A DNA stretch of 31,591 nucleotides from the IMG/VR virus record IMGVR_UViG_3300017753_002195, positions 1 through 31,591 of that record; one strand, 5' to 3'. Position numbers and translations under genes: made by a program. Source of the stretch: a virus. Shown piece by piece: positions 1 through 26,773 of this stretch. Under the pieces are notes generated by a model. It ran no database searches, had not been told where the DNA came from, and saw only the letters and a list, made by a program, of their open reading frames with translations. Position 1 is the stretch's first letter. Every line of letters starts with the position of its first letter.

Positions 1-686
1 ACAACATTGTCACTAGGATTTAAGTACGTAATCATATCTGGGTTACTAAAATCAACAGAATATCCTTCTTGCATTGCTAGGTATGTATAATGTATATTAC
101 CATTACTTAACAACCACTCAGATAAAGGATCATAACCATAAGGTTCAGCTAATCTTTGTACAAAACCAGAGTTTACAGAAAACTTTTTAGTAATGTTGTA
201 CTTGTATCTTTGCGATGCTTCAAAATATTCAATATCAGCAAAACCATCTTGAAGATATTCTATCTTAGCAATCCAGTCGTCAGCAACATATCTTAAAAAA
301 TGATGTTGATCTATATAGCTTTTACCTTGTACTCTTTTAAGATCACCTTCAAATAAAAATTCAAAACCTTTAATCTTACCTATATTAGCAGCGTCAGAAT
401 ATGTGTTTTCTGTACCATTGTAAAATGTACTAGCTCTATTTTCATATTGAAAACGTGCTATTTTTCTTACACCTAAGTTAATAGAGTAATCAAAAGGTGT
501 TTCAACTACACCTGATGTTAATTGACCAGTGTTTACTGAAAATGTATTAACATCTGATAATGATGTACCACCGTTTACAGCAGCGTAAAAAGTAGAAAAT
601 TTAAATGTTTTTTTAACCGTTTCTTTTAAGGTTTGACCAAAAATTAGACACGGAAATAATAATAGTATAAATAGTATCTTTTTCAT
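1..686 (-). CDS. Secreted/envelope protein of unknown function, 3' end cut off by the window
   Basis: About 228 codons are present from an ATG at 686; the C-terminus lies beyond base 1. The ATG overlaps the stop of the upstream T9SS-substrate gene by one base (TAATG), so the two are probably translated together. The N-terminus reads MKKILFILLLFPCLIFGQT: a basic start, a hydrophobic core and a cleavage site giving Gln at +1, which is typical of Bacteroidota secreted proteins. The mature part is rich in aromatic and polar residues in an alternating, beta-like pattern (for example GVRKIARFQYENRAS and YIDQHHFLRYVADDW), with no catalytic motif I recognise. It could be an outer-membrane or periplasmic beta-rich protein, or a virion fibre component. 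I vaguely recall similar proteins next to structural genes in marine phage genomes but cannot name a function. The signal peptide is what the sequence shows; location is inference. Confidence 0.8.
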   Translation of the reverse strand, partial: MKKILFILLLFPCLIFGQTLKETVKKTFKFSTFYAAVNGGTSLSDVNTFSVNTGQLTSGVVETPFDYSINLGVRKIARFQYENRASTFYNGTENTYSDAANIGKIKGFEFLFEGDLKRVQGKSYIDQHHFLRYVADDWIAKIEYLQDGFADIEYFEASQRYKYNITKKFSVNSGFVQRLAEPYGYDPLSEWLLSNGNIHYTYLAMQEGYSVDFSNPDMITYLNPSDNV

Positions 687-3289
687 TATTCTTTTATAAT
701 TCGTTTGTTATATGTGTTACCATCATGTTCTATAGTTAAGAAATAAACTCCTGATGGTAAGTCCGAAAGATTTATTTGTTTGTCTGTTACTTTAGATTTT
801 AATGATCTACCCGTAGAATCATAAAGGTTAGTACTTATATCTAAATCTGTAACGATGTTTAATATATCGTTTGTTGGGTTAGGATAAACTATAACACCAC
901 TAAATCTATTAAACTTACCTTCAATATTAAATCCTTCTGGCCAACCATCTTCACAATAGTTGTACATCTCTTGACATATTGGATCCCAATCATTATCACA
1001 GCAATAGCTATCAACATCAATAACCCAAGCGTAACAATTGTTATTTAACCAATATGGTTCACCTGGTCCTGTAATACAACCAGCATCGTATAAACACGAA
1101 TCTGGATCAGATACGTTTGCGTCTGGATTATAATTGTAAGAACTAGGATCAGTACAACCAACCACTGGTGTTATACAGCTACCATTGTCTGTGTTAGCTA
1201 ATGGGTTATAGTTAACAGAGTCAGGGTTTGTACAGCCGTATACAACATCTACACAGCTATCATTATCTGTATTAGCATCTGAGTTATAATTAAATGACGC
1301 GGGATTTGTACAACCGTATATAACTGGAACACAAGAACCATCGTCTATATTAGCACTAGGATTATAATTAAATGCTAAATCATTCATACAACCCTCTACA
1401 ACTGGAATACAATCGCCAGGTGTATTAGCGTCTGGATTATAATTAAAAGCTTCAGGATCCATACAACCAACTACAGTATCTTCACAAGAACCATCATCTA
1501 CAGTCGCTTCAGGATTATAGTTGAAAGCAAACTCGTTCATACAACCGTATATTATTGGAATACAAGAACCATCATCTACATTAGCATCTGGGTTATAATT
1601 TAACGAATCTGGATCCATACAACCTTCTACTATTGGAATACAAACAGTACCGCAGAAAGGCATTGCTTCATAAAATACATAGAAAGGTGAATCAAAAGAC
1701 TGTAAAGCTCCTTGACCATTGTTTTCAAATGGGTTTTGACCTTCACCAATAAGTATCTCACCATCTAATCCTTCTATTATAAATGAGTTATGCCATGTTT
1801 GAAACTGTACTTCTTGAGGAGGTGTTTGTGGTCCTCCAACTTGGAAGTAGTAAATTTTAACAGGTTCGTCAGAGTTTAAATTTAAAGGAAAAACTTGTTC
1901 ATATAAACCTGGTCCCATAGTATATGTTCCTAATGGAACATCACCTTGAGTTACACCTATAAACGAATTACCCCATCCATCAGCAGCCGCATCAAATATT
2001 ACTAAGTTATATTCACACACAGGTACTAATTCTTGTTTAGTAGCATCAGGATTATAGTTTATAGAGTTTTCATCCATACAACCCACTATGTGTTCAGTAG
2101 CACAAGAGCCATCATCAATAGTAGCTTCAGGATTATATTCAATATAGTTAGAATCTGTACAACCATATATTTCTTCTGTAACATCACAAGCTACACCACT
2201 TTGTGGTCCAGAGTATAATACATTATCAAAAGCAGGATCTTCCATCTCCCAAACAACATCACCATTACAATCATAAATTACAATTGTACCATCTACATCA
2301 CCACCTGATGTTGATCCAGCCATACCGTCTCCATAGGTATCATTTACTATAAGTTCAAAACCAGCGCCTTGATTTACACAAAAACTATAAGTATATGTTT
2401 GTCCAATATCGTTAAAGTTATAATCACCAACTTCTGCTTGACCTATTATTCCGCCACTATTCATAATCCAACTAGTTTCATTAGGCCAGTTATCAAATGT
2501 TATTTCCATTGTGATTTGATAAGTAGAATCAGTATCACACGTTGTTCCAGAACAAGAACCATCGTCTACGGTTGCCCACGGATTAAATGTTGGTTGAGTA
2601 GGGTCCATACAACCTTCTATACAGGAATAAGGCGTATATGGTATAGGATCTGATAAAGATCCGTCAGAAAATTCAACTTGTAAGTAGTGTTCAACACTCC
2701 AGTTTGGTGGCATTTGTCCATTACCAGCAAAAACACCAAAGTTATTTGCTTGACCAGCACCGTATTCAAATGGTCCTAAACCTTCAGCCGTTGAATAAAA
2801 AACTTTAACAGGTTCAGCATATCCTTCATATTCCCACTCAAATACAATTAATGCTTGACCATTATCTAAACATTGTTGGTAAGCATTTGTTGACGTAAAA
2901 CCATCAAAAGATGGAGGAGGACAAGCTAATAAATTAACTACAGTTTCATATTGTTCAAAATCAAAAGTAGCATCTAAGTTTAATATTTCACCTTGACAAT
3001 CATTTGATATTACAACACCAGCATAGTTACCTTGACCATCAGCCCAGCCATCACCCCAACTATCAAAAAGAGATATAGTTAAGTCACCTGAGTTAGCATA
3101 TACTAGAGTTTCAAAAAACTCACCAGGATTTGTTGGAGCATGATTTACTAATGTATCACCAACTTGATCAACAACTATAAATGATTCTTGAGGACCATAG
3201 CTATCAAATTGAACTTGTATATTAAACCAACTATCTTGTGATAAGATAAGTTGTGGTATTAATAATACTAATAAAATTAATTTTCTCAT
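686..3289 (-). CDS. T9SS-targeted secreted repeat protein (signal peptide, Cys-rich repeats, C-terminal sorting domain)
   Basis: 867 residues. A signal peptide (MRKLILLVLLIPQLILSQD) gives Gln at +1. Residues about 20-130 and 255-370 hold two beta-rich segments with FDSWGDGW- and DTYGDGM-like signatures common in extracellular marine Bacteroidota proteins. Ten copies of a short Cys-rich unit (GC-M/T-D/N, NYNP, DDGSC) follow: one near residue 225, two near 375-420, and seven in tandem at about 555-733. Residues about 799-867 form a classic T9SS (Por) C-terminal sorting domain: VYPNPTNDIL, LYDSTGRS, LPSGVYFLTI and a final KRIIKE. In the host family, such proteins pass Sec, fold in the periplasm, cross the outer membrane through T9SS, lose the sorting domain and are anchored or released. 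The start overlaps the upstream gene by ATGA. It may be a cell-surface modifier made during infection or a fibre-like adhesin; the gene looks host-derived. Confidence 0.92.
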   Translation of the reverse strand: MRKLILLVLLIPQLILSQDSWFNIQVQFDSYGPQESFIVVDQVGDTLVNHAPTNPGEFFETLVYANSGDLTISLFDSWGDGWADGQGNYAGVVISNDCQGEILNLDATFDFEQYETVVNLLACPPPSFDGFTSTNAYQQCLDNGQALIVFEWEYEGYAEPVKVFYSTAEGLGPFEYGAGQANNFGVFAGNGQMPPNWSVEHYLQVEFSDGSLSDPIPYTPYSCIEGCMDPTQPTFNPWATVDDGSCSGTTCDTDSTYQITMEITFDNWPNETSWIMNSGGIIGQAEVGDYNFNDIGQTYTYSFCVNQGAGFELIVNDTYGDGMAGSTSGGDVDGTIVIYDCNGDVVWEMEDPAFDNVLYSGPQSGVACDVTEEIYGCTDSNYIEYNPEATIDDGSCATEHIVGCMDENSINYNPDATKQELVPVCEYNLVIFDAAADGWGNSFIGVTQGDVPLGTYTMGPGLYEQVFPLNLNSDEPVKIYYFQVGGPQTPPQEVQFQTWHNSFIIEGLDGEILIGEGQNPFENNGQGALQSFDSPFYVFYEAMPFCGTVCIPIVEGCMDPDSLNYNPDANVDDGSCIPIIYGCMNEFAFNYNPEATVDDGSCEDTVVGCMDPEAFNYNPDANTPGDCIPVVEGCMNDLAFNYNPSANIDDGSCVPVIYGCTNPASFNYNSDANTDNDSCVDVVYGCTNPDSVNYNPLANTDNGSCITPVVGCTDPSSYNYNPDANVSDPDSCLYDAGCITGPGEPYWLNNNCYAWVIDVDSYCCDNDWDPICQEMYNYCEDGWPEGFNIEGKFNRFSGVIVYPNPTNDILNIVTDLDISTNLYDSTGRSLKSKVTDKQINLSDLPSGVYFLTIEHDGNTYNKRIIKE
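1093..1625 (-). repeat. Seven tandem Cys-rich repeat units inside the T9SS substrate gene
   Basis: Seven consecutive units of about 25 residues (about 75 bp), each of the form GC-M/T-D/N-(5-6 residues)-NYNP/S-(D/E/P/L/S)-A-N/T-(3-5 residues)-C, separated by three- to four-residue linkers such as IPI, EDT and PVV. Three further copies lie upstream in the same gene (around 2618-2550, 2165-2105 and 2090-2010). Each unit has two Cys that could form one disulphide, and a run of Asp/Asn that could bind calcium; the latter is inference. The units are degenerate at the DNA level, so the array is not freshly amplified. Confidence 0.9.
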
Positions 3290-3636
3290 TTTTTATTTTT
3301 TTTATTTTTTTTCTTTTTCTTTTTTAACAAATCACCTACGTCTATTGTAATAGATAATGTTAAACCGCCTAATGCTGTTGCGGCTAAATCTTTTGTGTCA
3401 AATATATTATTTGGTTGTGTAGAGTCATAAGTTTCTTTTGCAACACCTGCTAGCAACGATGCTAGTATTCCTGCTGCAAAAGCTTTTTTCCTATCTTTTG
3501 TTTTGCTATACACATAATCATAACCAACAGAGCTTGATAATATGCCAGCTGCAAAATGCAGTTGTTTGTCTTTTGGTATGTCTTGTGCGTTAGTAATACT
3601 CAACGTAAAAAATAATACTACCGCTAGTTTTTTCAA
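3286..3636 (-). CDS. Small exported YfiM/DUF2279-like protein with poly-Lys tail, TTG start
   Basis: 116 residues. The start must be TTG at 3636, because the previous in-frame codon is the stop of the giant gene (TAA directly abutting TTG) and no ATG lies before the signal peptide. The signal peptide MKKLAVVLFFTLSITNAQD gives Gln at +1. The mature part carries DKQLHFAAG, a central glycine-rich hydrophobic stretch, GVAKETYD, and FDTKDLAATALGG. These match the spacing of the YfiM/DUF2279 family (HF...G..KE..D...D...T..GG), short envelope proteins also found near phage lysis genes. The C-terminus is almost pure Lys/Asn, encoded by long A runs that also serve as the leader of the next gene, with which it overlaps by ATGA. 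A periplasmic or outer-membrane role, possibly in lysis, is inference. Confidence 0.72.
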   Translation of the reverse strand: MKKLAVVLFFTLSITNAQDIPKDKQLHFAAGILSSSVGYDYVYSKTKDRKKAFAAGILASLLAGVAKETYDSTQPNNIFDTKDLAATALGGLTLSITIDVGDLLKKKKKKNKKNKK

Positions 3637-6600
3637 TTAATTTATTCTTTTTCTTTTTCTTATAGTTCTTTTTAATTTTTTTCTACCTCCTGATTTTTTA
3701 GGCTCATCATCTATACCTAACTCCCAAGCTTGCCAACCACCTAATAAAGCAAAACGCTCCCATAATTCTAAGTCTTGTGACACAGCTGTGTTAACATTGT
3801 TAGCTTTTCTCACTAATCTATCAACAGGTACGTTAGTTGCGGCTGATATAACATTAGCACCAGCCATTAATGCTGGGTTATCAATTGCAAAACCTTTTTC
3901 ACGCATCTCTTCTTTTTGCCATTGGAAAGCTCTACCAGCCTGATTTAATCTTGAAAGCTTAGAAGATATTGGAGGTGATATTCTAGCTAAATCAAAACTA
4001 ATTTTTTCGTACTTAGGATTTTTCTTTTGTGACTCTTTAATAACTCTAACTATTATGTTTTTACCAACAGAAGTAAAAGCACCAGCTATACCTATACCTC
4101 TTAATAACGAGTCTAACATACCGTTAGCAGTGTTTAAATATTTTTCTTTTTCATCTTCTTCATCTTCTATGTTACCAAATCCAATAGCAAATATAGCTTG
4201 CTGTAAAGCGTTAAATATTAAGTTCTGTACAAAACCATAGTAAATAATCTTAGATATATTAGTTTTTACATCTCCTCTACGATTTTTAAGGTCAGAAACA
4301 GCTTTTTTAATTAATCTTGCATACTGCATAGGTGTATTTGCAAAAGCTAGTATAATTCTACCAAGTGGTCCAGCTTGTTGTTGTGATATACGATCAGGTC
4401 TACTTGACTGTTGAGACTCTTCAGCTATTTCTCTAAAATCATTAAACGCTTTTTCTTGCGCTTGTTGATCAGATAAACCTTGTTTTTTATAAGTGTTTAT
4501 TCTATTTCTATAAAACGTAGCACCACCAGAAGCAATTGCAAAACTATCAGCTATTTGTGTAGGTAAAAATCCTATTTCTAACATTTTAGCCACAACACCT
4601 CTTGCACCGCTTTCATTTGCCATATTAGCAATATCAGCTTCGTTTACATTTATTCTTAAACCTCTACGTCTATCAACTAGAAACTCAGAGTTCATTAAAC
4701 TCATAAAGTCTTTCCAAAACTGTTTTTGGTTAGCATATGCTTTACCAGCTTTAAATATATTGTTATCTGTAAAGTTAACAAAGTTAACAGCGGATATAGT
4801 TTGCAGCAATGCTGATCTAGTATTAAAGAACATGATAGTACCAATACTATTAGTTAACCAGTCTGTAACTTTACCTGTCACGCTATCACCAGTAAAACTT
4901 CTATTTCTACCGGTTTTCATACGTTGTAGTATACCTTCTAGTGCAACTCTATAAGGTTTGCCGTTTGCAGCTTCTAATTTATTTAAATTCTTTTCAGAAA
5001 ATATTATATCAACATTTTGTTGCCATTGTTGTAAGTGTTTAGCTCTTTTTGTAGTACCTAAACCTCTCATTATATCTGTAGTCGTAGTACCAGCTAACCA
5101 GCCAGATGTTGGAGCAGCATAACCATCATCTTTATTTATAGCTATTAGTTGATCACCAAACACTTTTAATTCAGGTTTATTGTCAATATAATCAGTTAAC
5201 TCTTTTAAATCAGCTTTACTTAAACCAGGTATGGTCATACCTTGTTTATTCCAAATATAAACTCTTACAGCCTGCTCATTAGTATATATGTCACCAGGTA
5301 TTTTTTTATTTAAATCTTTTGGTACAACACCTAATTGTTTTTTAAGTGCTTTATAATCTTCCATTAAAGTTATACGCTCTCTTGATATTGCAGACATAGC
5401 GCTAGCATAAGGATCAAGCAAGTTCTTTTTATACCAAGCCATTTGACTGTCACCAAGCCTACCTTTTGATAATGTGTTGTATAATAATCCTACAAAATCT
5501 TCGGCTGATGGTGGTATAAAAAATGTAAATTTACCTTTATTAGCACCTACAACTTCAGCTTTAGTTTTACCATATTCTTTTTCTGCAGCAATACCTGTTT
5601 TAGCTTCTATTATATCATTAAAATCTCTATCAAGCTTTTTAACTCTATCACTATATGCTAACCTAGTTTTTGATTTAACATCAACAACTTCTAATGCTTC
5701 TTGTACTGCTTTAACATTTTTATACACATCATCAGTAAAATAAAAATCATTATAACCTTCACCAGCTTTACCTATAACCCAGTTTGCTTTTGCTTGTGGC
5801 GTACCATCTTCTAAACCAGTTATATTTTGTAATGGTACTTCTAAACCAATACCTTTTAAAAAATCAAATATAGCTTGCGCGGATGCTTGTGGTCTAGCTG
5901 TTAAAACAAATACATCTTTATTACCAAACTTATCAATAGCTTTTTTAAGCTTAGCGGCGAGTGGTCCAGGTTTACCATCAACAACTTTATTAAACTCGCT
6001 AAAATCAAACTCAACACCTTGTTCTTCTAATTTACTATGCTGTTTTGCAAACTCAGAAGGTGTTATTTTTTTAGTTTTACCATCAACAGTAACTATAACT
6101 TTACTTTTACTAGTAGCTAATGTATCGTCAAAATCAAATATACTAATACCTTTTACAGGCGCGTTTAAGTTTCTAGCGTTGTTTAAAGCTTTATCATAAT
6201 TGTTTAAATCATTTAATAAACCATCATTATTAATTGCTTTGCTAAATTTTGATTTAGGATTTTTATTAAAAGCTTTTTCTTTATTAGTTTCTATATTTTT
6301 ATTTGTTGATCTACCAGCAGCATCAACATTAAAAGTTTCTGCAAAAGTTTTACCATCTAAACTTATTATTGAATTAGGGTCTATACCACCTTTTTGAGCA
6401 TATACAATATCGTTAAAATATCTTTGCCACCAATTACCTTCTATTACACTCCAGTCATCTGGCATACGTCTTTGTAAACTATAACCTTTTTTAGTTCTAG
6501 CGCTTTTAAGCTTATCGTCCATAGCCTTATCTAAAACTATCAACTTATAATTTTTAATAATTAAATCATAAGAAGTATTAAAGTTAGAGTCTGATAAAGC

Positions 6601-9600
6601 GCTATCCATTAAATATAAATAAGCCGCGGTGGCAGGCATAGCGTGTTCAAACTCTATGTTTTCATTTTTACCACCCTCTCTACTTGTTATTTTACTAGAA
6701 TAACCAGCTATTTGAGCACCAAGCCTGTGCCAAGCTTGAGGATCATTTGCAACTAGTTTTAAATATGTTCCAATACCTCCTGAAATTACACCATCTTTAT
6801 TTTTAGAAATAACATCATTAAATCGACTCCACATTTCTTTATGTATTACTGCTACATTATTATTCCATTTATCTATATCGCCATTTTTAATACCTTGTTG
6901 TATTTTATCTACAAAATTACCTTTTTTACCAAATATTGTAGTGTAGTTTTTAGTTAAAGTCCAATCAACACCTTGTATAGGTTTTCCAAAATTTGTAAAA
7001 TCTTTACCTATTGTAAATATTTCGTCTTTAAATTTATTATAAGATTCAGCCTCGTTGTCTTTAGACATACTTAAACCATAATTTTTATTAGTATAGGTAA
7101 ATACGGAGCTAGTTACATTACCATCTTTATCATAGTTAAACCAAAACTCTTTAGGCATTAGAGGTAATAAATCACTTTTAACAAACTCTATAAATTCAGC
7201 TCTACCAGTATCGCTTTTAATATTAAATGTAGAGTTTTGACCATATAAATCTAAAAGTTTATCTATACCGTTAGTTTCTAATTCAAACAAACTTCTTATA
7301 TTTATTATATCCCTAACAGCTTTACTAAATTTTGCTCTAGGATCAACAATAAGTTTTTCAGACACTTTAGCTACATCTTCTTCTACAATATTAGCTCTAT
7401 TCATAACGCTAGGTACTATATCTCTAAACAAACTAAATGATATAGCGTTTACTAAACCATCTTTTCTAGTTCCTTTAGTACTAGCACCTACATCAAAGAA
7501 AAACTTTTTAACTTGTTCTATAGTAGGTTTTTTTCTAGGATATTTTGATGGCCCTTGCTTTTCGTTTTCTACATAAAAATCACCTTCATCAATAGCTTTG
7601 TCTATTTGAGCTTGTGTAGTTAATCTAGTAGGTTCATCTGTAAATATTCTATCAGCAGCTGGTGTTCTACGTTCCATTGCTACAAGTGTAGCTATAGGTA
7701 GATTTTTACCACCAAATAAAACATTAATATTATCTTCTAAAAACTTATCAAAGTTTTTTAACTTATTTTTAACAGATTTAAATGATTTTTGCTGAGCAGC
7801 ATCTTTAACAAACGTTTTAAAGTCTTTATCGTTAGTTTCAGGTGTTACACCTTCAACTATTTCAATAGTATTAGCTTCTATTTCATCTTCTATTTTTTGA
7901 TCAACAAACTGCTCGCCGTCAACTCTTAAACCTTGTTTTAACTCTGATCTCGGAGCTTCTGTAGTTTCTATATCTAAATCAGCTTCATCAGCGATAGGTG
8001 TTCTTATAGAACCAGTTTCACCAACTTGAACATCTAAACTACCGGCTTGCTCTCTTCTATATCTATTGACTACATCACCTATTCTAAACTGTTGTAACTC
8101 ACTAACAACAAAGCCACCTAAATCGTCGTTTGTTTCAGGATTAAATCTTGTTAAACTTCTTTCAAACAATTGTTGTTTAACATCTTCCACGAAGTTGTTT
8201 ATAGGTTTACCAAATACATTATCACCAGTAACACCAAATTTGTTTAATTGACCTCTAATTAAACCGTTTAACGTAGTACCGACAACTAGATCATTATACA
8301 CATCACCAATAACTTGACTATCGTATTCTTGTTTAGTGGTTCCTTGTGGTACTAAAGCTTTTATTTGATCACCTACAGGTTTAGATAACTTTACTTCTTC
8401 TTGCTCTTCTGGCGCAGATGCTATAACTTGTTGTTTTTCTACTTGTCTTTTAAAGTTTTTAGCAAACCTTAATACATCATTAGAATCACTTAAATCAAAC
8501 ATCCAGCTATACTCACCAAACACATCACCAACAAATCCTCTAACAAAATCTTGAAAACCATACATAGTTTCTATATCAGAAATATCTAATAAACCTAAAA
8601 CTACAGCGTTCTTAATTTGTTCTAATATTTCTTCAGAATCACCTTCATAAGCATTTAATCTTCTTATTAAAGCATTATAATCGTCTTCTTTTATTTTATT
8701 TAATTCTTTCTTTTCATTAAGTACTTTTACAGCTTCTTCTACTGCTTTTTTACTTTTTTCAGTCATTTGACCGTCTTTATCAACAAGTCCGTATGCTCTA
8801 TTTCTTATGTGTGATAATTCTTCTAGCGGTGCTATCGCGGCGTATTTTGCATCACCTCTAGCACCTTCTAGTATGTTTTTTATTAAAGCTTTTTCATTAA
8901 TTATAATATTGTTACCTGCTTGAGCAGCGTTTGCCCCTTCACTAAAATTAACTTTTACAGCGTCTATTGTAGCTTGATCTATACCTTTTTCGATTAATTT
9001 ATTTTCTATAGCTTCAAAATTAGTTAAATTAAAACCTACATTACTACCTGGTTTTATTTCAATTAATTCGCCTTCTGTATATTCAATATATTCACCATTT
9101 TCAGGCAACATTATTCTAGCCGCGTCTTTATAAAAATCATACAAACCTAAATGATAAGCGGCATTAGGCCCGGATTTTAACTCAAAACCAAGACTACTAG
9201 CATGTTCTTTTAAAATATTATCAATTTTTTTTCTATTTTTAATTTTTTTACTTGATAATAAAGTTTCTAACTTTTCTTGTAAAAACTCATAATCTTTTTG
9301 TATTTTTTCAACCTCAGTATCCGCACTAGCACCTGTTTTACCAGCATCAGCTATTCTACCAGCTAGATTTTTTAGCTGTCTCATCTCTCTTTTTATGTCA
9401 GCCGCTTCCTCTATTTGATCACCAGTCATTGAGTTTAACTTCTGTATAGAGGTTGCATTCGCAAGTGCTAACTCTTGTAGTATTTCGTTTTTTCTCTTTC
9501 TTTTGTCAAGAAGCTCTTGTCCTTCAGAGTTTTTAATATCTACTCTTATATTATCTAATTCTAGTCTTAATTTTCTATTATTTAAAACTTCATCTCTTGT

Positions 9601-11631
9601 AGCAAATTCTTGAGTTATAGCGTTTATAACGTTTGACGCAACTTTAGGAGCGGTAATAGATCCAATAGTTACAAAGTTATTAGCAAAAAATTCTTTATTT
9701 ACACCGCTTAGTATACTTTTATTTTCTTTTAAAATAAATATATCAAGAAAGTTTTGACCTGTTAACGTACCAAGCTCTTCAAGTTGTTCAATAGTACCAC
9801 CTCTTAATAAGACTTTACCACCTTCTTTACCAACATTACCTAATAAATTTAAACTAAAATTAGGTATTTTACCGTAAACTTCTTTTTTAAACTTATTTCT
9901 ACCATACTTTAAACCATAATTACTAGCTTCTTGTAAAAACTTTAAAGGTAGTCTTTCAAAAGCAGAAGCAATAACACCTGAACCATATGCTGTAAAAGCT
10001 TTTTGAGCTAATGAATAACTACTCATTCTTTGTAAATCTTTTATTTGTTGATTTAAGTTTTTTGCTTCAAAACTTTCAGGATCCAAGTTTTTTAATTCTT
10101 CATTTAACTCTGGTAATATCTGCAACGCTGTTCTTTGTCCAAGCTCTTTGTCTATAGCGTCACTACCAGTTTCAACACCACCAAAAGTACCTAATGTAGT
10201 GTTCATAGCAAACCTATTGTATTTCAAGGTTTTTTTCTTTGCCTCTAAAGTAATTTTACTTTTATAAGCAGGTGACAATACTAGCGACTTAGTTTTACTA
10301 GCGGCTTTAGCAAGTATAGATCTACCAACAAGAGCAGTTCCCGCGCCTAAAGTACCTATTAATATTGAAGGACTGTTATTAACAGCGGCTTCCGCAATCC
10401 AATCACCATAACCTATATTATTACTACCAATATCATCTAAAGTTATAGGAGCTGGTAAATTAACTTCTCTTCTTTTAGCTAACATCTGGTTATAATCAGT
10501 AGCATGGTTTAACGCGTAGCTACCAACCATATCAACCATTTTATCAACTTGACCCTCAGTTAATTCATCTATATAATCTAATCCTCTACTTATTATTTGA
10601 CCAGGTATACTACCGCCACCAGTTTTTCTAGCAAGTTTTGTTAAAACTTTACTTGTTAAACCAACAAGTTCAGCACCTGATCCTAAAAAAAACTCTTCAA
10701 AAACTTGAGATGCTCTAGCGCTTAAGCTATAATCTTTACCTAATGCTTTTGATATTATAGCAGCGTCATTTAACTGGCTATTTTTATTTTTAATATTTTT
10801 AAGCATAAAGTCTAAAGACTCGCTTTGTAGTTTTATATCATCAAATCTAGCTGTTAAGTCTGGTTGGTTTTCAGATATAATTTGATTACGTTGGTTTATC
10901 AACTCGTTAAATTTTTCTATTCTTACAGGTGAATCAAGCTGAGGATCCATTTTAAAATCACCTTGAGATAATTTTTCTAACTCGCTATCTATATTATTTA
11001 TTTTATCAGAAAAAACTTTAACTTCATTCTTATATGTTAAGTAATTTTTATTATTTTCTTCAACAGACTTTTTATATAAATTACTTTGATCTTCAATAAA
11101 TTTATCGCCTTGATCAAAACTTTCAAAACCAGTCATATCACCAACGCTTATTCTATCTGCAACCTCTTTAGGTATATTTCTTCTTAATAGCTCAGCGTTT
11201 TTAGTTTTTTGCTCAAATTTATATTTTTCACCTAACGAATCAGTTTGATCATTTTTAACAAGTATACCATCTTCATTAAATAAAACATAGTCATCATACC
11301 TGTCTCTATAAAAACTTTTTAAATAATTATCGTATTCTTCATCTGACCTGTATTTTTTTACACCACTAGGTGTTAAAACGTTCTTATCGTCTACATTATT
11401 TAAATCAAAATACTCGTTAGCAACGCTAGAGTTTATTTTGTCATTATCTATTTTGTTAATATTAACAATATAATCTTTAGCTTCAATACTAGCTTTTACT
11501 TGTAGCTCTTGCTCTTTTTGCTCAGCAATTTCTTCTTGTTTAGCAAGGTATCTAGGATCTCTTTGAGGATCTTCTATACCTTCTTTTTGTAAAGATAAAA
11601 CAAGATCTCTTAACTCATTTCCGTTAGCCAT
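3637..11631 (-). CDS. Giant 2664-residue multidomain virion/polyvalent protein with HAD-type phosphatase domain
   Basis: The largest gene, 2664 codons, probably an internal virion protein ejected with the DNA. N-terminal residues 1-300 are charged and coiled-coil-like. Hydrophobic segments lie near 410-435 (ILIGTLGAGTALVG) and 2460-2485. Around 937-941, EELSH sits where a zincin would have HExxH, lacking the first His. Residues 1162-1173 (RFNPETNDDLGG) resemble a signature seen in large phage polyvalent proteins. A HAD-superfamily phosphatase fold spans about 1828-1990: FDFDDT with D1833/D1835, LTARPQ with T1911, and TDDVYKN with D1967/D1968. The final 600 residues resemble C-terminal domains of phage 'large polyvalent' proteins (SALLQTISAVNFVNFTDNN), and the tail is basic. 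No DxDxD polymerase motif was seen, so I do not call it a virion RNA polymerase. HAD call firm; virion location inferred from position and size. Confidence 0.78.
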   Translation of the reverse strand: MANGNELRDLVLSLQKEGIEDPQRDPRYLAKQEEIAEQKEQELQVKASIEAKDYIVNINKIDNDKINSSVANEYFDLNNVDDKNVLTPSGVKKYRSDEEYDNYLKSFYRDRYDDYVLFNEDGILVKNDQTDSLGEKYKFEQKTKNAELLRRNIPKEVADRISVGDMTGFESFDQGDKFIEDQSNLYKKSVEENNKNYLTYKNEVKVFSDKINNIDSELEKLSQGDFKMDPQLDSPVRIEKFNELINQRNQIISENQPDLTARFDDIKLQSESLDFMLKNIKNKNSQLNDAAIISKALGKDYSLSARASQVFEEFFLGSGAELVGLTSKVLTKLARKTGGGSIPGQIISRGLDYIDELTEGQVDKMVDMVGSYALNHATDYNQMLAKRREVNLPAPITLDDIGSNNIGYGDWIAEAAVNNSPSILIGTLGAGTALVGRSILAKAASKTKSLVLSPAYKSKITLEAKKKTLKYNRFAMNTTLGTFGGVETGSDAIDKELGQRTALQILPELNEELKNLDPESFEAKNLNQQIKDLQRMSSYSLAQKAFTAYGSGVIASAFERLPLKFLQEASNYGLKYGRNKFKKEVYGKIPNFSLNLLGNVGKEGGKVLLRGGTIEQLEELGTLTGQNFLDIFILKENKSILSGVNKEFFANNFVTIGSITAPKVASNVINAITQEFATRDEVLNNRKLRLELDNIRVDIKNSEGQELLDKRKRKNEILQELALANATSIQKLNSMTGDQIEEAADIKREMRQLKNLAGRIADAGKTGASADTEVEKIQKDYEFLQEKLETLLSSKKIKNRKKIDNILKEHASSLGFELKSGPNAAYHLGLYDFYKDAARIMLPENGEYIEYTEGELIEIKPGSNVGFNLTNFEAIENKLIEKGIDQATIDAVKVNFSEGANAAQAGNNIIINEKALIKNILEGARGDAKYAAIAPLEELSHIRNRAYGLVDKDGQMTEKSKKAVEEAVKVLNEKKELNKIKEDDYNALIRRLNAYEGDSEEILEQIKNAVVLGLLDISDIETMYGFQDFVRGFVGDVFGEYSWMFDLSDSNDVLRFAKNFKRQVEKQQVIASAPEEQEEVKLSKPVGDQIKALVPQGTTKQEYDSQVIGDVYNDLVVGTTLNGLIRGQLNKFGVTGDNVFGKPINNFVEDVKQQLFERSLTRFNPETNDDLGGFVVSELQQFRIGDVVNRYRREQAGSLDVQVGETGSIRTPIADEADLDIETTEAPRSELKQGLRVDGEQFVDQKIEDEIEANTIEIVEGVTPETNDKDFKTFVKDAAQQKSFKSVKNKLKNFDKFLEDNINVLFGGKNLPIATLVAMERRTPAADRIFTDEPTRLTTQAQIDKAIDEGDFYVENEKQGPSKYPRKKPTIEQVKKFFFDVGASTKGTRKDGLVNAISFSLFRDIVPSVMNRANIVEEDVAKVSEKLIVDPRAKFSKAVRDIINIRSLFELETNGIDKLLDLYGQNSTFNIKSDTGRAEFIEFVKSDLLPLMPKEFWFNYDKDGNVTSSVFTYTNKNYGLSMSKDNEAESYNKFKDEIFTIGKDFTNFGKPIQGVDWTLTKNYTTIFGKKGNFVDKIQQGIKNGDIDKWNNNVAVIHKEMWSRFNDVISKNKDGVISGGIGTYLKLVANDPQAWHRLGAQIAGYSSKITSREGGKNENIEFEHAMPATAAYLYLMDSALSDSNFNTSYDLIIKNYKLIVLDKAMDDKLKSARTKKGYSLQRRMPDDWSVIEGNWWQRYFNDIVYAQKGGIDPNSIISLDGKTFAETFNVDAAGRSTNKNIETNKEKAFNKNPKSKFSKAINNDGLLNDLNNYDKALNNARNLNAPVKGISIFDFDDTLATSKSKVIVTVDGKTKKITPSEFAKQHSKLEEQGVEFDFSEFNKVVDGKPGPLAAKLKKAIDKFGNKDVFVLTARPQASAQAIFDFLKGIGLEVPLQNITGLEDGTPQAKANWVIGKAGEGYNDFYFTDDVYKNVKAVQEALEVVDVKSKTRLAYSDRVKKLDRDFNDIIEAKTGIAAEKEYGKTKAEVVGANKGKFTFFIPPSAEDFVGLLYNTLSKGRLGDSQMAWYKKNLLDPYASAMSAISRERITLMEDYKALKKQLGVVPKDLNKKIPGDIYTNEQAVRVYIWNKQGMTIPGLSKADLKELTDYIDNKPELKVFGDQLIAINKDDGYAAPTSGWLAGTTTTDIMRGLGTTKRAKHLQQWQQNVDIIFSEKNLNKLEAANGKPYRVALEGILQRMKTGRNRSFTGDSVTGKVTDWLTNSIGTIMFFNTRSALLQTISAVNFVNFTDNNIFKAGKAYANQKQFWKDFMSLMNSEFLVDRRRGLRINVNEADIANMANESGARGVVAKMLEIGFLPTQIADSFAIASGGATFYRNRINTYKKQGLSDQQAQEKAFNDFREIAEESQQSSRPDRISQQQAGPLGRIILAFANTPMQYARLIKKAVSDLKNRRGDVKTNISKIIYYGFVQNLIFNALQQAIFAIGFGNIEDEEDEKEKYLNTANGMLDSLLRGIGIAGAFTSVGKNIIVRVIKESQKKNPKYEKISFDLARISPPISSKLSRLNQAGRAFQWQKEEMREKGFAIDNPALMAGANVISAATNVPVDRLVRKANNVNTAVSQDLELWERFALLGGWQAWELGIDDEPKKSGGRKKLKRTIRKRKRIN

Positions 11632-21653: not shown

Positions 21654-23084
21654 TTATGATTCTTTCAATAGAACAAAGTTATTAGCACCTTGTACTACTA
21701 AACATCTTTCAGATAAATAGTGTACTTCCATGATATCATCTCCAATATAAGAAGCAGATCCAACAGAACCAGTAACCCAAGATTTCATTCTTCTGTCATC
21801 AGTTTGTGAAGCTCTATATCTTACATGTAAGAAAGGTCTTTTAATGTTTTTACCCATTGATTGGTCATAAACACTAGAAGTACCAGCAGGAACTAAAATT
21901 CCAGAGATATCTCCAAAACCGCCTCTACCAGCAGCATCATTTAGGTATTTCCAGTCAGACTTATAGAAGTCATAAGAACCTCTTCTAAATCCAGAGAAAC
22001 CTAAATTAAGCGCCATATCAGCACTGTTAGAAAATACTCCAAAAGAAGCACCACCTTGGTAATTAGCATTTAACCCAGCAACCATATCATCGATTGTAAG
22101 AGCTAATGATCTATTTACGTAAAGCATGTTTTCTTCAATTGCTCCTTGCTTATCAAGATTTTTAAGAACTAAATCGAAGTCAGCTAAAGAAGCTAGATCT
22201 TCAAAGATATTTCCTCTTGAAGTTACAGCAGCAAATAAACCTTCAGAACCATTAACGTTACTAACGTGGTCAGCAACACCAGAAGAAGCTTCAGTAAGCT
22301 CAGCTTCAATCATCATAGACTCTAGGTAATCTTCAAATCTCATTCTAGTTTCACCAGCAGATTTTAAGTACCAAGAATATCCTGAAGCACCACTTTCATC
22401 AGTAGTTTCAACCCAACCAATTTGAGCAGTATCAGAACCATCAATCTTAAAGTGATCTTTAATAATTAAAGGTCTGTTGTTATACTGAGTAAATTGAGGC
22501 TTAAGCTCACCTGACATAGAAGCAGAACCTTTAGCAAATTCAGAACCGTAAACGAATATGTTTACTTTATCAGCATCAGCAAAAGTAACTTCACCAGAGT
22601 TAAGTTCATCTTGAGTATAAGGTTTAAGTGTAAAAGTTTGACTACTTACAGCAGAAACGTAGCACTTAAGAGTTTTAAGTCCAGTTGCAGCGTCAGTAAT
22701 TAACGCTGTGTTACCTACTCTCATAGAGTTACTTAAAGCACTTCCTAAGGTACAAAGACCAGAAGCAGCAGTAGTAACAACTACAGTTGAGTTAGCAGTA
22801 ACGTCATCATTTCTATAAGCAATATGTAATCTGTTTTGCTCAGACCAAATTACTTGATCAGAACTCATAGGCATTTCAGCCCCTACCATTTGTAAAAATC
22901 CACTAATTGAACGATTTCCGTATCTTTCGATTTCTTGTTCGTACAATTCTGGTAGATATTGTTGCGCCCAACCAGCTGTAGTTGATGATGTAAAATCAAT
23001 ATAATTTTGATCACTTACAGTAGGAGAAGGCATAGGAGATAGAGAGTATGAACCCGCTAATCCTAAAGACGTATTAAATCCCAT
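21654..23084 (-). CDS. Major capsid protein (HK97-fold, crAss-like/marine phage type)
   Basis: 476 residues. The order scaffold-capsid, the length and the features fit a major capsid protein: an N-terminal SDQNYIDFTSSTTAGWAQQY with YLPELYEQEIERYGNRSISG, a mid region with repeated beta segments, a helical stretch with EENMLYVNRSLALTIDDMVA, and a C-terminal part including PFLHVRYRASQTDDRRMKSW. I associate these with HK97-type capsid proteins of marine and crAss-like phages. Codons tend to A-ending GCA, GTA and GAA, unlike the T-ending bias around it, consistent with high expression. The leader is A-rich (AATTAAAACAAAATG) without a Shine-Dalgarno sequence, as in Bacteroidota. No cleavable signal or proteolytic pro-domain is evident, and the scaffold is encoded separately just upstream. 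Confidence 0.88.
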   Translation of the reverse strand: MGFNTSLGLAGSYSLSPMPSPTVSDQNYIDFTSSTTAGWAQQYLPELYEQEIERYGNRSISGFLQMVGAEMPMSSDQVIWSEQNRLHIAYRNDDVTANSTVVVTTAASGLCTLGSALSNSMRVGNTALITDAATGLKTLKCYVSAVSSQTFTLKPYTQDELNSGEVTFADADKVNIFVYGSEFAKGSASMSGELKPQFTQYNNRPLIIKDHFKIDGSDTAQIGWVETTDESGASGYSWYLKSAGETRMRFEDYLESMMIEAELTEASSGVADHVSNVNGSEGLFAAVTSRGNIFEDLASLADFDLVLKNLDKQGAIEENMLYVNRSLALTIDDMVAGLNANYQGGASFGVFSNSADMALNLGFSGFRRGSYDFYKSDWKYLNDAAGRGGFGDISGILVPAGTSSVYDQSMGKNIKRPFLHVRYRASQTDDRRMKSWVTGSVGSASYIGDDIMEVHYLSERCLVVQGANNFVLLKES

Positions 23085-24362: not shown

Positions 24363-24974
24363 TTACCTAGGTTCAAATTGTTCTAGGCCAAAACCTTCTA
24401 AATTATCAAATCCAGCAGATTCAAAGTTTTTAGGAGCTTTATCTTTTTTTCTTTGATCAATTAACTCGCTTTGTTGAGTTGCTTGTATCTTAGTTCTTTC
24501 GTCTTTACGATCTTCTTTTTGTCTTTCTCTTTCTTTTAAAACATTTGACTCAGCTTGTCTTAACTGTAAGTTCATGTTAAACTCTATTTCCATAAGCTCT
24601 TTTTTAAGTTGAGCTTCTCTTTCAAGTTTTTGCATTTCAAGTTGTGATTTAACTTGTAGCATCTGAGATTCAGTTTGCGCTAATGCTTGTTGTTTTTGCA
24701 TTTCAGCAGCGGCAGCTCTTTCAGAAGCAGCAGCGTTAGCTTGTGCTTGAGCTTGTATATTTTGTTGAGCTATTTGTTGATCTAAAACTTGTTTCTTTTT
24801 TCTTCTTATTTTAAGTAATTGATTAGCTAGTTTTATATTTCTAACTTCTCTAACATCAATAGCGTCTTCTAAATTTATACTGTTTTGCTGTAAAGCCATT
24901 TGTATATTATTCTCTAGTCTTTGCTTTTCTTCTTCATCAGGCGCTAGCTCTAAGAATATACCAAAATCATGTAG
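24363..24974 (-). CDS. Portal protein C-terminal part, out of frame with its N-terminal part
   Basis: Reading from base 24974 in the -1 frame gives LHDFGIFLELAPDEEEK, QRLENNIQ and then MALQQNSINLEDAIDVREVR, followed by a long Gln/Ala/Glu-rich coiled coil to residue 803 of the reconstructed protein. The block around DFGIF, ELAPDEEEK and ANQLLKIRRKKK is what I recall as the usual C-terminal end of portals in crAss-like and marine phages. The ATG at 24899 inside it is therefore probably an internal Met, not a start. If the stop at 24950 is real, this part could be lost or made as a separate coiled-coil protein. Confidence 0.8.
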   Translation of the reverse strand, partial: LHDFGIFLELAPDEEEKQRLENNIQMALQQNSINLEDAIDVREVRNIKLANQLLKIRRKKKQVLDQQIAQQNIQAQAQANAAASERAAAAEMQKQQALAQTESQMLQVKSQLEMQKLEREAQLKKELMEIEFNMNLQLRQAESNVLKERERQKEDRKDERTKIQATQQSELIDQRKKDKAPKNFESAGFDNLEGFGLEQFEPR

Positions 24975-26773
24975 TGTAAGCTAGCCATTTCTTCTAATGT
25001 ACCAACATTAAATTTACCTAATGATTTTATAAATGATTCCCTTGTAGGTGAATATTCTATAACGTCTGATATTCTCATTGCTATACACTCTGCAGTAGAT
25101 AAAGTTATATACAAACTAGACTGTAATAAATGTCTTGTAGCTGTGTTACTATTAGCAGCTGCTAACTTTTGTATACCAACTAATGCGTTTTTATCTGGCA
25201 TACTACCATCTCTAGCTTCATTTAAACCAGTTACATCACGCATCATTTGTAAATAGTAATTATAAGTTTGTATTAAACTTTGTATCTTACCACCTTTAGA
25301 ACTAGTATTTAATTCTTGAATAGGTCTATTACCTCTATTCATATCACCATCTTGCGTCATTGATCTACCTATAACAGAACCTGTTTGGAAGAACATATTT
25401 AATGCTTCCGCAGGATTATAATTAGTACCATTACCAAGATCTATCTCAGCTAAAGCATCTGCATCTAAATAAACACCATCTGGCACCATTTTAGACATCA
25501 CTTGTTGAAGCTTTAAATGAGTTATTTGTATCATATCTGCAAAACCAGTTATTCGTCCTACTAATGATTCTATTCTACCTTCATACATTTTAGGAGCACA
25601 TATACTATAGCTCATAACAGCTTTTGTTGTATCTGCCTTAGGTCTTATCATGTTCTTTTTTAATTCCCATTTAAGAATTTTATCATAGCCACTACCTAAT
25701 ATTTTAGCTCCTTCATATACAACTTCTATTACTCTTTCAACTTTTTCAAAGTCTTCATTTTTAGGTGGATTAAAGCTACTATCTTTTTTTATAGCTCTAC
25801 TACCACCTGTAGAAGTTTTCTTAACCTTATATACTTCACTCATATAAGTTTTGTATTCAAAATATAAAATACTTATAGAGTTGTTTTCATCGTTCTTTTT
25901 ATTATAACTAGTTTTATTTGAGTAAGAGCTGCTACTAGTTATATATTGCTCTAATTCTTCATCTGTTATTTCAGGAAACTCTTTTTTAAGCTCATTAGCA
26001 TACACTTGTTTTACTTCACCAACATAATATATATCATCAAAATAAGGTGAGTCAGTATAAGAATAAACTAAATTAGCTGGATCTACATAATCAATTTTAA
26101 TACCTTCTGATTTATTAAAAGAGTTTTTAACAGCACCAATACCTAATACAACTAAATCATTATTTACTCTTTTAGATAAATACTCGTATTTGTTTTTATC
26201 AAAAATACTATTTATAGCTTCTTCTTCTGCTATTTCAATGCTTTGCTTATAATCAAGTTGCATGTGCAACTCTAGCTCTTCACTAGTTTCAGGTAGTTTT
26301 GTTTGATCTGTTTTATACATATCAATACCAAACTGACTAGCTACTTGATCATTAAAACCTTTTGCTTGCATGTCTGAAACTATATTACTAACGTAATCAG
26401 TTCTTTCTTTAATAGCAGCTGGATCTTGTGAGTATGCTTTAATATCATAAGATCTATCAGCCATACCGTTAACAACTATATCTACAAACTTTGGTATAAT
26501 TGGAACTGGTTTCCAGTCTAAATTAAGATATGACAAATCACCATTAATAGATAATTCATCTTTATATTTTTTAATTGACTGCTCACCTCTTGAATATAGT
26601 CTCAATGAGTGAAAAGATTGTTTGTATGTATTATATCTATTAGAGTTGTCATTTTTATTAAACCACTCGTGCTCTATAGCAGAACCTACTCTAGAGCCAT
26701 ATTCTAAACTCATCTTCTCCACATCGCTAACAGCTTGACTAGGGAAATAGGTTTTGATACCTTTTTTAATCAT
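24950..26773 (-). CDS. Portal protein, N-terminal 600 residues, truncated by a -1 frameshift
   Basis: 607 codons as read. The N-terminal domain and residues up to about 560 have portal features: SLVGRITGFADMIQITHLKL, a VPDGVYLDADALAEIDLGN segment, and LQMMRDVTGLNEARDGSMP, KNALVGIQK and ATRHLLQSSLYI, a pattern seen in portals of this phage type. It forms the vertex ring through which DNA is packaged and ejected, and lies two bases after the TerL stop. After H600 (CAC at 24976-24974) the reading frame runs only into YMILVYS and a stop, while the -1 frame gives the expected portal C-terminus. The intact protein would have about 803 residues (24363-26773). A missing base near 24971-24980, real or from sequencing, or a programmed shift explains this; no classic slippery heptamer is visible. 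Confidence 0.85.
   Translation of the reverse strand: MIKKGIKTYFPSQAVSDVEKMSLEYGSRVGSAIEHEWFNKNDNSNRYNTYKQSFHSLRLYSRGEQSIKKYKDELSINGDLSYLNLDWKPVPIIPKFVDIVVNGMADRSYDIKAYSQDPAAIKERTDYVSNIVSDMQAKGFNDQVASQFGIDMYKTDQTKLPETSEELELHMQLDYKQSIEIAEEEAINSIFDKNKYEYLSKRVNNDLVVLGIGAVKNSFNKSEGIKIDYVDPANLVYSYTDSPYFDDIYYVGEVKQVYANELKKEFPEITDEELEQYITSSSSYSNKTSYNKKNDENNSISILYFEYKTYMSEVYKVKKTSTGGSRAIKKDSSFNPPKNEDFEKVERVIEVVYEGAKILGSGYDKILKWELKKNMIRPKADTTKAVMSYSICAPKMYEGRIESLVGRITGFADMIQITHLKLQQVMSKMVPDGVYLDADALAEIDLGNGTNYNPAEALNMFFQTGSVIGRSMTQDGDMNRGNRPIQELNTSSKGGKIQSLIQTYNYYLQMMRDVTGLNEARDGSMPDKNALVGIQKLAAANSNTATRHLLQSSLYITLSTAECIAMRISDVIEYSPTRESFIKSLGKFNVGTLEEMASLHYMILVYS

Follow-up and report, generated by a model that had tools for sequence, protein, structure and literature searches.

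Does a phage whose portal gene is spread over two reading frames make this protein in an unusual way, or is the split an accident of one genome record? The question is raised by a stretch of 31,591 bp (hereafter the window) that constitutes a whole IMG/VR virus record, in which the minus strand carries a terminase large subunit gene (29010-26776; PHROG 6681) followed by a portal gene (26773-24950; PHROG 6547) whose main frame stops early, at 607 amino acids. An earlier note on this DNA had proposed that a missing base, a sequencing error, or programmed frameshifting would give a full portal of 803 residues, and 803 amino acids is indeed the length found in intact relatives. As we describe below, the split is almost certainly a sporadic one-base deletion confined to this record, arising either by error or by recent mutation.

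Two frames that together encode one portal

The main portal frame agrees with its family up to residue 600, a histidine, after which it reads YMILVYS-stop, i.e., seven out-of-frame codons. The -1 frame, in turn, is open from just past an in-frame TAG, through LTLHDFGIFLELAPDEEEK, to a stop at 24363, and it is in this frame that we found LHDFGIFLELAPDEEEK along with the remaining portal coding up to 24363. The reading of the frames thus bears out what had been described from the sequence, namely that the main frame ends seven codons after H600 and that the -1 frame carries the rest. The same picture emerged from profile matching: The two open reading frames (ORFs) hit adjoining parts of one portal profile, PHROG 6547 (827 positions), with the upstream ORF covering positions 4-624 and the downstream ORF positions 652-824, while the intact portal of a relative, locus L001, covers 4-823 (E 1.9e-144). 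Taken together, the two ORFs match the family profile along the length of the protein; the single uninterrupted ORF of ~800 amino acids that is the other mark of the family is broken in the window's record alone. Aligned by tblastn to residues 599-803 of the L001 portal, the 3′ part is 99.5% identical. The ATG at which the downstream ORF of 178 amino acids was called sits within the -1 portal frame, 50 bases past the main-frame stop (Table 1).

Table 1. Features of the split portal gene in the window.
Feature	Position	Strand	Basis
Portal, 5′ part	24950..26773	-	PHROG 6547, E 1.1e-102; residues 1-600 genuine, identical to L001 and L002; last seven out of frame
Site one base shorter than in all relatives	24973..24975	-	Sole indel versus L001 and L002; 347 one-frame loci
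Portal, 3′ part (last wing strand, crown, barrel helix), -1 frame	24363..24973	-	tblastn; PHROG 6547 positions 652-824; model
ATG called as start of the 178-aa ORF; internal Met, residue 626 of the intact portal	24897..24899	-	Alignment
GCTAGC, coincidental	24943..24948	.	Chance frequency; present in intact L001 and L002
GCTAGC, coincidental	24980..24985	.	Chance frequency; present in intact L001 and L002

All relatives read through the site in a single frame

Scanning IMG/VR with the 607-amino-acid protein as a query, we obtained 80 loci, none of which matched the query past residue 600. Matches extended over residues 1-600, or nearly so, in 79 of them, the remaining one (L026) being cut off at residue 528. 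In all 79 loci that reach the site, the frame runs on unbroken across it, and in most of these the ORF extends to the usual end of the family; two break later, at about residues 738 and 720 (L029 and L066, respectively), and four meet no stop ahead of the contig end (L028, L058, L063, and L072).

The DNA of two near-identical loci pinpointed the lesion. L001 shares 99.96% identity with the window across 4,814 bp, and L002 99.79% across 9,884 bp; both have an intact 803-codon portal whose residues 1-600 are 100% identical to those of the window, and in each the sole indel relative to the window is exactly one base, at 24974. Apart from this base, a single synonymous substitution sets L001 apart from the window, and L002 has 20 substitutions, most of them synonymous. 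These intact copies strongly support the proposal of one missing base or a sequencing error.

The comparison with intact homologues that had been called for was then widened to 347 loci that span residues 570-640; the set is partly redundant, and the number of distinct portal 3′ sequences came to 302 overall. Every one of the 347 reads this segment in one frame, and the window's copy alone is split. The exact altered junction occurred in no other IMG/VR contig, and a degenerate version of the deletion pattern returned 10 IMG/VR hits, all of them one-frame intact portals that fit the pattern via their own codons. A homologue with the same stop, which the earlier note had named as the case that would speak against its reading, was sought among the IMG/VR relatives and not found. 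The portal of Maribacter phage Panino, a relative that has been cultured, is encoded by one ORF of 814 amino acids (WZE63605.1); it shares 46% identity with the intact L001 portal, with which it is colinear through the break segment. The window thus has the gene, and the order of terminase large subunit followed by portal, of the PHROG 6547 portals of marine Flavobacteriia-type podoviruses (L001, L002, and Panino), but whereas these have one ORF of ~803-814 amino acids, the window is one base short and hence in two frames. This one-base difference is unique to the record.

A portal ending at residue 600 would lack the crown, the barrel, and the last wing strand

What the missing base would cost the protein was read from a structure model of the intact portal of L002 (mean pLDDT 71.5, pTM 0.62; domain borders are approximate). 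The model displays the wing, stem, crown, and barrel architecture of P22-like portals, and its best structural matches include the portals of phicrAss001, Pan3, and P22. The likeness to P22 gp1 (PF16510; 3lj5, 5jj3) lies in the modeled portal fold, with Z of about 20-25 for P22 chains, and in a long C-terminal helix that corresponds to the P22 barrel, whereas the sequence identity is ~9% and the match to PF16510 scores 23.3 bits, under the curated cut-off of 26.1. Searching the PDB by sequence turned up nothing relevant.

In the model, the break is soon followed by a strand (604-610), then by helices (614-643) and a long helix (647-776). Structural alignments to several P22 chains stop at model residue 610, which aligns with P22 gp1 residue 522, and in P22 the crown spans residues 525-600 and the barrel 600-725 (PMC5290284). 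Since residue 610 thus precedes the crown, a product truncated at 600 would be left without its last wing strand, its entire crown, and its barrel. The segment immediately after the break is also well conserved, with a mean majority fraction of 0.81 for residues 601-660, compared to 0.73 for residues 1-600 and 0.71 for 661-803. Given these lost domains and this conservation, a real mutation would probably destroy the function of the portal. We also considered a functional barrel-less core in the style of P22 portal-602, a construct that was purified and crystallised (PMC5290284), and discarded it: With its position before the counterpart of the P22 crown, the break at 600 is harsher than the portal-602 truncation and does not mimic that core.

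No mechanism joins the two frames

A -1 shift would, if programmed, yield portals of both 607 and 803 amino acids from one gene. Phage genes with programmed -1 frameshifting include those of the tail assembly chaperones and T7 gene 10, and the window resembles them in that two overlapping frames jointly encode a longer protein; the downstream frame is moreover intact and retains its 99.5% identity to an intact portal. The window's site differs from these genes, however, in lacking conservation, a phased slippery site, and structure, with all relatives intact. The zone in which a shift could be used is bounded by two TAG codons, one in the -1 frame immediately before CTTACACTA and the other closing frame 0, and no slippery heptamer was found in it. 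The sole X XXY YYZ-like heptamer within the last 75 nt, AAATTTA, lies out of phase, upstream of the zone; a ribosome shifting at this point would run into the TAG that precedes CTTACACTA. Pseudoknot-free RNA folding of 111 nt around the site was no better than that of shuffled sequences (z = +0.53), giving no sign of a stimulatory structure. Because the two-frame arrangement occurs in 0 of 347 loci, the exact junction recurs nowhere else in IMG/VR, and intact near-identical copies contradict it, we consider programmed frameshifting, as the earlier note had entertained, to be extremely improbable. Among the papers listed by literature searches for portal frameshifts, no title or abstract opening reported such a case. 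If the shift were programmed or tolerated, it would constitute a new way to tune the portal barrel, which the relatives argue against.

The gene might instead be split into two separately translated proteins of 607 and 178 amino acids that assemble together, and an ATG 50 bases past the stop, as well as the considerable length that both halves retain, would fit such a division. In 55 aligned portals, however, residue 626 is M in 20, V in 17, and I in 12, so that the ATG at 24899 is no conserved start but only an internal Met, just as had been suggested. Starting there would also lose residues 601-625, with invariant positions among them, and no homologue is divided at this place; the chance of a two-protein portal is therefore next to nil, and an internal start at 24899 was rejected. 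A similarly negligible probability attaches to the two GCTAGC copies that flank the break site, one on each side, as a hairpin or recombination site that causes or regulates the break. The earlier note had located the first copy correctly and the second at 24979-24984, one base off its actual position, and had suggested that the two could pair across the site. GCTAGC occurs six times in the window versus 5.1 expected by chance, intact L001 and L002 have the two flanking copies as well, and the predicted RNA fold, which is not unusual, pairs neither copy with the other. Neither a hairpin nor any other role is left for them. No mechanism, then, joins the two frames, whether the base was lost by error or by mutation, and the split is most likely not a biological feature of the phage, nor a new way of making a portal.

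Assembly error or recent mutation

We suggest that the portal gene of the window is an ordinary one, of the P22 type and from a marine Flavobacteriia-type podovirus, hit by a sporadic single-base deletion at ~24974 in one record. If the base was lost in assembly or sequencing, the virus population would make a normal 803-amino-acid portal; alternatively, one sampled genome may have suffered a real, very recent, and probably lethal frameshift. Sporadic lesions do occur in this gene family. Singleton breaks occur elsewhere in 3 of ~247 other portals covering residues 60-780 (L275 at ~329, L066 at ~720, and L029 at 738), i.e., portal lesions run at about 1%; for the terminase, 1 of 119 is broken. 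The three portal breaks are nonsense or frameshift changes in the portal genes of related contigs. Upon comparing the window's ORFs with 26 relatives, the portal break was the only uncompensated frameshift found. In L002, the major structural protein gene carries a stop codon close to both its own end and the contig end, at a point where the window is intact (window-equivalent position 21747). In a marine virome study, viral assemblies built on short reads were reported to contain <2 indels per 100 kb, as against several hundred in unpolished long-read ones (PMC6487183). The short-read rate corresponds to under about 0.6 expected indels in 31.6 kb, so that one error in this record would be unremarkable.

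On balance, an assembly or sequencing error is the likelier origin of the missing base, and we hold it to be probable. A real recent frameshift, by which the sampled phage would be a dead or decaying variant, is a less likely but still sizable possibility: Single-base deletions happen in nature, other portals have singleton breaks, and position 24974 lies outside any long homopolymer, the usual hotspot of sequencing indels, which counts against an error. Against a mutation stand the lack of a second IMG/VR contig with the altered junction, the intact long genes across the rest of the window, the high conservation of the lost portal part, and the mostly synonymous differences from L002, as in a functional lineage. 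That a real frameshift variant circulates, with a barrel-less portal that is tolerated or complemented by intact siblings in co-infection, seems very improbable. For annotation, the portal of this record is best entered as a single disrupted gene rather than as two proteins, and the ORF of 178 amino acids should not be treated as a separate gene.

Other genes in the window

Further along the minus strand, a gene at 3637-11631 encodes a protein of 2,664 amino acids with no match in Pfam or PHROG. It is followed by a gene for a 116-amino-acid protein (3286-3636, minus strand) that resembles the YfiM family and phage lipoproteins (NF008028, E 1.7e-09, below the cut-off of that model; PHROG 26616, E 8.8e-09). 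A minus-strand gene at 686-3289, located where the block of phage structural genes ends, encodes a protein of 867 amino acids whose start resembles a signal peptide and which carries a C-terminal sorting domain, type A, of the type IX secretion system (T9SS; TIGR04183, E 6.6e-15; PF18962, E 4.7e-14). Of the related loci retrieved, only two showed any similarity to this protein (43% in L262 and 29% in L148). Judged from its sequence, this phage-encoded protein looks addressed to the type IX secretion system of the host.
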